The position numbers and the translations under genes were made by a program. The notes beneath the pieces are model-generated. The model had not been told where the DNA came from. It saw nothing but the letters and a program-made list of their open reading frames with translations, and ran no database searches. DNA of 34,597 nt from Candidatus Nomurabacteria bacterium. GTDB taxonomy: Bacteria; Patescibacteriota; Minisyncoccia; Phycocordibacterales; CAIZLB01. The stretch is taken from NCBI GenBank assembly GCA_943356525.1, contig CALRFG010000001.1, forward strand, positions 139,919-174,515, in the 5' to 3' direction. Each line of letters begins with the position of its first letter. Within the stretch, counting starts at the first letter, position 1. Shown here piece after piece: positions 29,573 through 30,836 of the stretch.

Positions 29573-29582
29573 GTGGTGTGGC

Positions 29583-29612
29583 TTTAATTGTGGTGAATTC
29601 GCTGTAATTAAA
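29583..29612 (+). repeat. GAATTC-centred hairpin #1
   Basis: TTTAATTGTGGTGAATTCGCTGTAATTAAA; arms pair fully as + strand RNA if G-U wobbles are allowed. Confidence 0.85.
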
Positions 29613-29628
29613 AATAGAGTGGTGTGGT

Positions 29629-29658
29629 TCTAATGTTATTGAATTCAATAACATTAGA
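29629..29658. repeat. GAATTC-centred perfect 30-bp palindrome #2
   Basis: TCTAATGTTATTGAATTCAATAACATTAGA equals its own reverse complement. Confidence 0.95.
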
Positions 29659-29704
29659 TATGTATTAAGTTTGTTATATATAATTATTAAAAAAATTTAA
29701 AACT

Positions 29705-29857
29705 ATGAAAAAAATAAATACAAAAACAAAAATGTTATTTAAGTTACCTGCTATAAATAATCAACATTTTTACAGAAAAATTAAAAACAAAATAGACCCA
29801 ACTCATAAAGATTATGATCCAAGGTTGCATTATTTAGTGGAAAAGCATTTAAATTAA
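29705..29857 (+). CDS. Hypothetical basic small protein (50 aa)
   Basis: ATG...TAA: MKKINTKTKMLFKLPAINNQHFYRKIKNKIDPTHKDYDPRLHYLVEKHLN; below track cutoff. Confidence 0.4.
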   Translation: MKKINTKTKMLFKLPAINNQHFYRKIKNKIDPTHKDYDPRLHYLVEKHLN

Positions 29858-29961
29858 GGTGTTTCTGGTTTTTGAATATATATCTTTACTTTACTAAGTC
29901 TTGTGCGTTTCTTTATCATTTCTTTATGAGAACTTTAACCTGATTTTGTTAAGGTTTAAGG

Positions 29962-30768
29962 ATGAAAAACATTAAAGTAAAAAATATAGATATATCAATA
30001 ATTTCAAAAGATAAAAATGAGTATATATCATTAACGGATATTATTAAAGCTAAAGATGGAGATTTCTTTATTTCTGATTGGCTTAGAAATAGGAATACTA
30101 TTGAATTCTTAGGTATCTGGGAACAATTAAATAACACAGATTTTAACTATGGCGAATTCGCCATAGTTAAAAGTTATGCCGGATTAAATAATTACAAATT
30201 AAGTGTTAAAGAATGGATCAAAAAGACCAATTCTATAGGATTACAAGCAGTCTCAGGTCGTTATAAGGGTGGAACATTTGCACATAAAGATATTGCCTTT
30301 GAATTTGCTATGTGGATTAGTCCTGAGTTCAAACTTTGTCTTATAAAAGAGTTTCAAAGATTAAAAGATGAAGAATCTTCAGATAGAAGATTAGAATGGA
30401 ATGTAAATAGATATTTAACCAAAATTAATTACAAAATCCACACAAACTCAGTAAAACAAAATATAATCATTCCAAATAAAATAAAAAACTCAAGCATTAT
30501 ATACGCCAACGAAGCAGATATTTTAAATATGGCATTATTTGGTATAACTGCAAAAGATTGGAAGTTGAATAATAAAGATTTAGAAGGGAATATGAGAGAC
30601 TATGCAGATGTTATTCAGTTAATATGTTTATCAAATCTAGAGGTCTTGAATAGTGAGTTTATAAAATCAGGACTCGGTCAAAAAGAAAGATTGATAAAGT
30701 TAAATGAAATAGCTATATCTCAGATTACTTTGTTGGTAAACAATAATACTATCAAGAAACTTATCTGA
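29962..30768 (+). CDS. KilA-N domain protein (phage/mobile-element associated DNA-binding family)
   Basis: ORF 268 aa; DWLRNRNTIEFLGIWEQLNN, FNYGEFAIVKSYAGLNNYKLSVKEWIKKTNSIGLQAVSGRYKGGTFAHKDIAFEFAMWISPEFKLCLIKEFQRLK. Confidence 0.88.
   Translation: MKNIKVKNIDISIISKDKNEYISLTDIIKAKDGDFFISDWLRNRNTIEFLGIWEQLNNTDFNYGEFAIVKSYAGLNNYKLSVKEWIKKTNSIGLQAVSGRYKGGTFAHKDIAFEFAMWISPEFKLCLIKEFQRLKDEESSDRRLEWNVNRYLTKINYKIHTNSVKQNIIIPNKIKNSSIIYANEADILNMALFGITAKDWKLNNKDLEGNMRDYADVIQLICLSNLEVLNSEFIKSGLGQKERLIKLNEIAISQITLLVNNNTIKKLI
30141..30172. repeat. GAATTC-centred perfect 32-bp palindrome #3 inside KilA-N coding sequence
   Basis: TTTTAACTATGGCGAATTCGCCATAGTTAAAA equals its own reverse complement. Confidence 0.97.
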
Positions 30769-30770
30769 GT

Positions 30771-30798
30771 TTAAAGGCATCGAAATCGATGCCTTTAA
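30771..30798 (+). terminator. Strong hairpin just after KilA-N stop, possible terminator (weak U tract)
   Basis: TTAAAGGCATCG-AAAT-CGATGCCTTTAA, 12-bp stem, 2 nt after TGA. Confidence 0.6.
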
Positions 30799-30812
30799 CA
30801 ACTTGTTTATCC

Positions 30813-30836
30813 AACCTGGTTGAATTCGACCAGGTT
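30813..30836 (+). repeat. GAATTC-centred palindrome #4
   Basis: AACCTGGTTGAATTCGACCAGGTT; one T-G pair, otherwise perfect. Confidence 0.85.

Follow-up and report, generated by a model that had tools for sequence, protein, structure and literature searches.

The 34,597-bp stretch of a Candidatus Nomurabacteria genome analyzed here (assembly GCA_943356525.1, contig CALRFG010000001.1, positions 139,919 to 174,515; hereafter the window) contains a KilA-N gene with a 32-bp perfect palindrome centred on GAATTC inside its coding sequence, and further palindromes with other arms lie free beside the gene. We find that the in-gene palindrome is a trait of the KilA-N family that is selected at the DNA level, and that its arm bases covary with residues 38, 39 and 42 of the encoded protein. 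The palindrome is thus almost certainly the cognate binding site of its own protein, and we consider it highly probable that the palindromes in general are binding sites of KilA-N proteins. On balance, the best overall explanation appears to be that the in-gene site also acts as a self tag, and that free sites confer immunity against KilA-N proteins of other alleles. The features of the locus are as follows.

29583-29612, no strand: palindrome #1, free; 15-bp arms with 4 G-T wobbles; spells FNCGEFAVIK; a YG-type site that has decayed, with x2b = G in each half-site.
29629-29658, no strand: palindrome #2, free and perfect; half-site GTTATT; spells SNVIEFNNIR; matches the VI/NN allele, KilA-N L045 of the genus-mate G001 (A38 N39 S42).
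29962..30768, + strand: KilA-N gene encoding protein P0001, 268 amino acids; PF04383 KilA-N; PADLOC candidate defence family PDC-S22.
30067..30087, + strand: predicted DNA-reading helix, codons of residues 36-42 (FISDWLR); contact candidates S38, D39 and R42.
30141-30172, + strand: palindrome #3, in the KilA-N gene; perfect over 32 bp; half-site TATGGC; spells FNYGEFAIVK; predicted cognate site of the gene's own protein, in which S38 D39 R42 would read TGGC.
30770-30799, no strand: palindrome #5, free; half-site GGCATC, the same as that of KilA-N L149 (Q38 N39 R42); one central mismatch; spells FKGIE(I)DAF.
30813-30836, no strand: palindrome #4, free; 12-bp arms with 1 wobble; half-sites CTGGTT/CTGGTC; spells SNLVEFDQV; matches the LV/DQ allele, KilA-N L038 of G001, also downstream of clpC (K38 N39 R42).

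A first-pass annotation of the window had described four GAATTC-centred palindromes inside 1.25 kb, each spelling N-x-x-EF-x-x, and both their coordinates and their peptides proved exact; it had overlooked palindrome #5 (TTTAAAGGCATCGAAATCGATGCCTTTAAC), which begins directly after the KilA-N stop. Two smaller features share the interval upstream of the gene, namely an 11-bp direct repeat, GTGGTGTGG(C/T)T, at 29573-29583 and 29619-29629, immediately before #1 and #2 (46 bp spacing), and a small reading frame of ~50 amino acids at 29706-29858 (MKKINTKTKMLFKLPAINNQHF...) between #2 and the KilA-N gene. The genome (626,383 bp in 8 contigs) has 74 GAATTC sites, of which 4 form the centre of a long palindrome, all at the KilA-N locus, and a scan of 626,238 of the 626,383 bp found no further palindromes of the same kind outside it. 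A whole first-order Markov genome, with any centre allowed, yields 1-5 hits whose arms are of comparable quality, hence five palindromes with the same centre in 1.25 kb are not due to chance.

KilA-N homologues were gathered from relatives, one-per-species genomes, viral contigs, phages and plasmids. Nearly all of them carry the palindrome at the same codons, as TTTTAA-n5-CGAATTCG-n5-TTAAAA with differing arms, and the AAY that the first-pass annotation had seen at a fixed distance in all four copies is real, being part of a constant frame T-N-TAA-N7-GAATTC-N7-TTA-N-A. The arm alleles include YG/AI, VI/DN, VI/NN, VT/GN, LV/DQ, GV/DP and GV/DT as well as PL/EG, PI/DR, VV/DH, SV/DR, RT/GT, YT/GI and CT/GT. 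With small centre shifts allowed and the stop-shortened L362 gene left out, at least 11 of the 15 paired positions match in 167/167 distinct KilA-N genes from many phyla and phages. Across 48 distinct 30-mers the mean is 13.6 of 15 pairs, compared with 8.9 (standard deviation 0.2) under synonymous resampling, 10.8 for shuffled halves and 3.9 at other centres in the same genes. Pairing so far above the synonymous-codon expectation shows that the DNA palindrome itself is under selection. Among the homologues and viral contigs examined, KilA-N was the only kind of gene that contained it, always at the same codons.

The bases of the arms follow three residues of the N-terminal domain. When each of 56 N-domain clusters (80% identity) is represented once, the base at -5, counted from the centre, can be predicted from residue 39, that at -4 from residue 42, and those at -6 and -7 from residue 38. 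The pairs are D with G in 9/9, N with T in 34/35, S with T in 4/4 and K, R or H with C in 7/7 for residue 39, R with C in 47/47 and Q with G in 3/3 for residue 42, and K with G in 16/16 and E with C in 5/5 for residue 38. Read on the opposite strand, residue 39 pairs Asp with C, Asn with A and Lys, Arg or His with G, and residue 42 pairs Arg with G, all of which are usual major-groove contacts. The z-scores reach 19 for residue 39 and 16 for residue 42, compared with a maximum of 3.8 in the C-terminal domain, and parsimony co-changes on the tree number 7 versus 1.8 expected for residue 39 and 4 versus 0.4 for residue 42. For 19 held-out new domains of <85% identity, the prediction was correct in 17/19 for residue 39 and 16/19 for residue 42, with residue 38 weaker (8/14). 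Given that the codons of the three residues lie ~70 bp upstream of the palindrome, the covariation is no coding tautology. By this code, #3 fits P0001, #2 fits L045, #4 fits L038 and #5 fits L149-like proteins.

The assignment of residues 36-42 as the reading helix relies on this covariation, the tree co-change and the hold-out. In the AlphaFold model of P0001, which has the element order of a winged helix, residues 38, 39 and 42 fall where the region of helix 37-57 begins, and the palindrome encodes helix 63-72. The latter was considered as the base reader and rejected, because only helix periodicity in the model speaks for it and the covariation points to helix 36-42.

By its pattern of identities, P0001 is a mosaic in which the recogniser domain and its site were exchanged as one block. 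Over residues 21-100 it shares ~70-90% identity with YG-type proteins from other phyla and 35-65% with those of genus-mates; over residues 141-268 its identity to L131 and L038 is 79%. Among 143 proteins, same-allele pairs with C-terminal domains 50-70% identical share residues 21-100 far above different-allele pairs, and this excess similarity drops to zero in the C-terminal domain, so that the C-terminal region evolves separately from the N-terminal domain. At the corresponding loci, the genus-mate G002 has a KilA-N gene of allele LL/EQ directly after clpC, as in the window, and G001 has one of allele LV/DQ ~2 kb further beyond clpC.

In one homologue, L362, the in-gene palindrome has disappeared together with the peptide that it spells (now FSIETYYTFL), and just upstream of the start are two perfect CTGGTC palindromes, of the type predicted by its helix K38-N39-R42. 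This case, with the caveat that the gene has an internal stop, suggests that the site is able to move and that the palindrome-encoded peptide is dispensable. Since L362 lost the peptide yet keeps sites of the predicted type, the shared peptide would be a by-product of the shared DNA site.

The first-pass annotation had suggested that the intergenic copies may be related to the KilA-N motif at the nucleotide level, a view to be abandoned if no homologue carried their residue pairs and the variable arms were unrelated across strains. Both pairs exist in same-genus alleles, VI/NN in L045 and LV/DQ in L038 of G001, and the relationship thus stands. Free palindromes are also found in other KilA-N flanks in Patescibacteria and Bacteroidota, where the neighbouring gene's half-site occurs in 0/20, at a cut-off below which the decayed own-type copy #1 fell. 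In phages without a KilA-N gene, LV/DQ-like copies sit in intergenic gaps (Streptococcus, Staphylococcus and Lactobacillus phages, with free copies in Javan117, Javan527, Javan53, Javan583, Javan637, phiLP081102, SP197, PMBT8, Pel11, DW2 and LR1), viral contigs have free copies too, and Streptococcus satellite phages have KilA-N genes of the LV/DQ type. Exactly one site is present in 41/42 viral records found by pattern. Copies are rare in genomes, although these tallies are lower bounds because FN-type sites escape the strict pattern TTYNAA...TTNRAA; E. coli population data gave a single genome with a weak match. As for the origin of the free copies, KilA-N pseudogene remnants were ruled out for #1, #2, #4, #5 and most phage sites, given that the flanks are not KilA-N-like; the exceptions, which do resemble remnants, are L300 and a partial second copy in L115. 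Of the three origins that the first-pass annotation had offered (remnants, donor cassettes or binding sites), only binding sites are supported, by the covariation and the hold-out.

Three further arrangements of free sites were seen. The Bacteroidota loci L081, L087, L094 and L107 have arrays of 2-4 different palindromes, some of which share an outer TTTAAA, within the ~150 bp that precede the KilA-N gene. In the viral contigs L139, L148, L150, L153, L155, L167 and L173, free sites join the half-sites of two alleles, for example GGTCT/CCTAT, and perhaps serve two KilA-N alleles simultaneously. In the Staphylococcus phages L270, L271 and L269 the flanks are direct, not inverted (ACCAGT-CGAATTCG-ACCAGT; ACGGGT-CGAATTCG-ACGGGT).

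The closest functional parallel is BstA of prophage BTP1, a KilA-N(-like) abortive-infection protein; the bstA locus includes a cognate DNA element, aba, that spares the own phage (Owen et al. 2021, PMC8585504). The aba element is 63 bp long with CCCGCC direct repeats and lies at the bstA start, with 29 bp upstream and 34 bp coding, and one copy in the encoding phage suffices for self-immunity (PMC8585504). Both systems combine a KilA-N(-like) N-terminal domain with a separate C-terminal domain, a likeness of architecture and not of homology, and both have a short DNA element within the gene locus; immunity is allele-specific (cognate) in BstA and would be so here by analogy. Gene order is similar in two viral homologues: bstA lies behind the c1 repressor, and the satellite Javan279 and phage EW have repressor, KilA-N and integrase, with the KilA-N gene of EW following the repressor after an ImmA-like gene, whereas in the window it follows clpC instead. 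In contrast to the KilA-N site, which lies within KilA-N domain codons, aba is no palindrome, and PMC8585504 does not describe any free heterotypic sites for it.

In the explanation that we favour, the KilA-N protein very probably binds the palindrome inside its own gene, ~20 codons downstream of the codons of the DNA-reading helix, so that any exchange of the N-terminal domain would carry specificity and site along as a unit. The in-gene site would most likely be a self tag. The protein would act against replicating foreign DNA, as BstA does, and DNA with the cognate palindrome would either be spared or neutralise it. Those free palindromes that belong to other alleles, whether next to this gene or in phages, would then be immunity elements against the KilA-N proteins of other elements. 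This logic accounts for an in-gene site in essentially every gene and one site per viral genome, for the heterotypy of the sites next to genes, and for the presence of sites in phages without the gene. We regard the aba-like self-immunity tag as an evenly balanced proposition. A broader idea, which we offer tentatively, is a self/non-self DNA identity system in which a defence protein has its recognition site within the codons of its DNA-binding domain, domain exchange switches recogniser and tag at once, hosts and phages engage in an arms race of free tags, and recognition follows an amino-acid/base code. If correct, these predictions give a DNA-recognition code for the widespread, poorly understood KilA-N domain and a predicted cognate site for the candidate phage-defence family PDC-S22, and explain palindromes in bacteria and phages that are otherwise hard to understand. 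How BstA-type proteins distinguish own from foreign DNA becomes testable with 30-bp oligonucleotides.

Several observations weigh against the self-tag explanation. P0001 has no detectable homology to BstA (BLASTP expectation value (E) 0.55, hhalign probability 0.3%), and the bstA locus has no palindrome of the KilA-N kind. The heterotypy of free sites beside genes comes from ~7 independent lineages (p ~0.02), and #1 is a homotypic free site, though decayed. The alleles YA/DI and YG/AT are stably imperfect, and L362 is a single case with an internal stop. Many of the Bacteroidota free sites are located 26-150 bp before the gene, a position in which an operator is also expected.

The last point leads to the main rival, an intragenic operator, in which KilA-N would be a regulator that represses its own gene by roadblock and the free sites would be operators by which the KilA-N proteins of other elements control this gene or genes of phages. 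Binding is supported by the same covariation, PHROG labels the family transcriptional regulator, and the two homotypic sites just upstream of the L362 start, like the upstream sites in Bacteroidota, are where an operator would be placed. However, the conserved site lies ~200 bp into the coding sequence, L362 is the only case in which homotypic sites were seen close to the promoter, near-gene sites are heterotypic, and viral records have one site and no regulon. Phages without KilA-N keep well-formed sites, which as operators would benefit only a competitor. An operator thus explains binding, but not the other-allele sites near genes or their retention in phages, and we consider it rather unlikely.

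An RNA hairpin or terminator, with palindromes kept for transcript structure, is very improbable. Every imperfect pair in #1 and #4 is a + strand G-T, three terminator-like hits were found versus 0.2 in shuffles, and the free phage sites are in intergenic gaps, but the tails of the three pattern hits (TCTGTGTTAT, CAACTTGTTT and TATGTATTAA) show no clear U-tract, many in-gene mismatches are A-C, and one conserved copy is mid-gene. A transcript structure also leaves the base-by-base covariation with residues 38, 39 and 42 and the fixed allele vocabulary unexplained. Rickettsia palindromic elements are in-frame insertions in many unrelated genes and also occur in gaps, and a mobile element of this kind, by chance fixed in KilA-N, would fit the free copies in phage gaps and beside KilA-N genes and the clustered arrays in Bacteroidota. 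It is scarcely plausible for palindromes that were seen in genes only in KilA-N and at the same codons, are otherwise intergenic and rare in genomes, and have arms that covary with the protein. Almost no credence remains for the cassette store suggested in the first-pass annotation, in which free palindromes would be recombined into the gene to swap six variable residues and alter specificity. Free copies do match sister-genome alleles, and specificity does switch between orthologous loci, but swaps extend over about residues 21-100, exchanging the palindrome alone would leave residues 38, 39 and 42 unchanged, and outside the palindrome the free copies are not flanked by KilA-N coding sequence. 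We rejected the cassette donor model on account of these missing flanks and of the exchange of entire N-terminal domains.

The family assignment of P0001 rests on matches to Pfam PF04383 (78.4 bits, gathering score 23.8, E 4.5e-22, residues 9-135) and PADLOC PDC-S22 (388.9 bits, E 2.6e-117), the latter also matched by four homologues (E 1e-117 to 1e-131 for all five). Membership in BstA was ruled out by profile and sequence comparison, given that BstA-BTP1 matches the BstA profile in PADLOC and P0001 only PDC-S22. PDC-S22 is a candidate single-gene defence family of PADLOC-DB, which appears in PMC12813430 only as part of co-occurrence statistics, without a palindrome or mechanism; P0001 is a member by profile, and defence is a candidate activity of the family. 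NCBIfam has no model for P0001 and the PDB no sequence relative. The PF04383 match and the winged-helix order are shared with PCG2 (KilA-N/APSES; fungal SBF/MBF), in which the wing reads DNA in the minor groove (review PMC4862756), whereas the specificity signal here is in helix residues 38, 39 and 42. A literature search, with subscription journals and preprints mostly outside its coverage, found no work that joins KilA-N with palindromes. A fold search with the P0001 model gave nothing beyond weak matches (E 0.01) to DdrC, which binds DNA in the damage response of Deinococcus. In L183 (2447-3274), the C-terminal half of the KilA-N protein also matches the PADLOC candidate PDC-S13 (E 3e-5), which suggests a shared effector domain.
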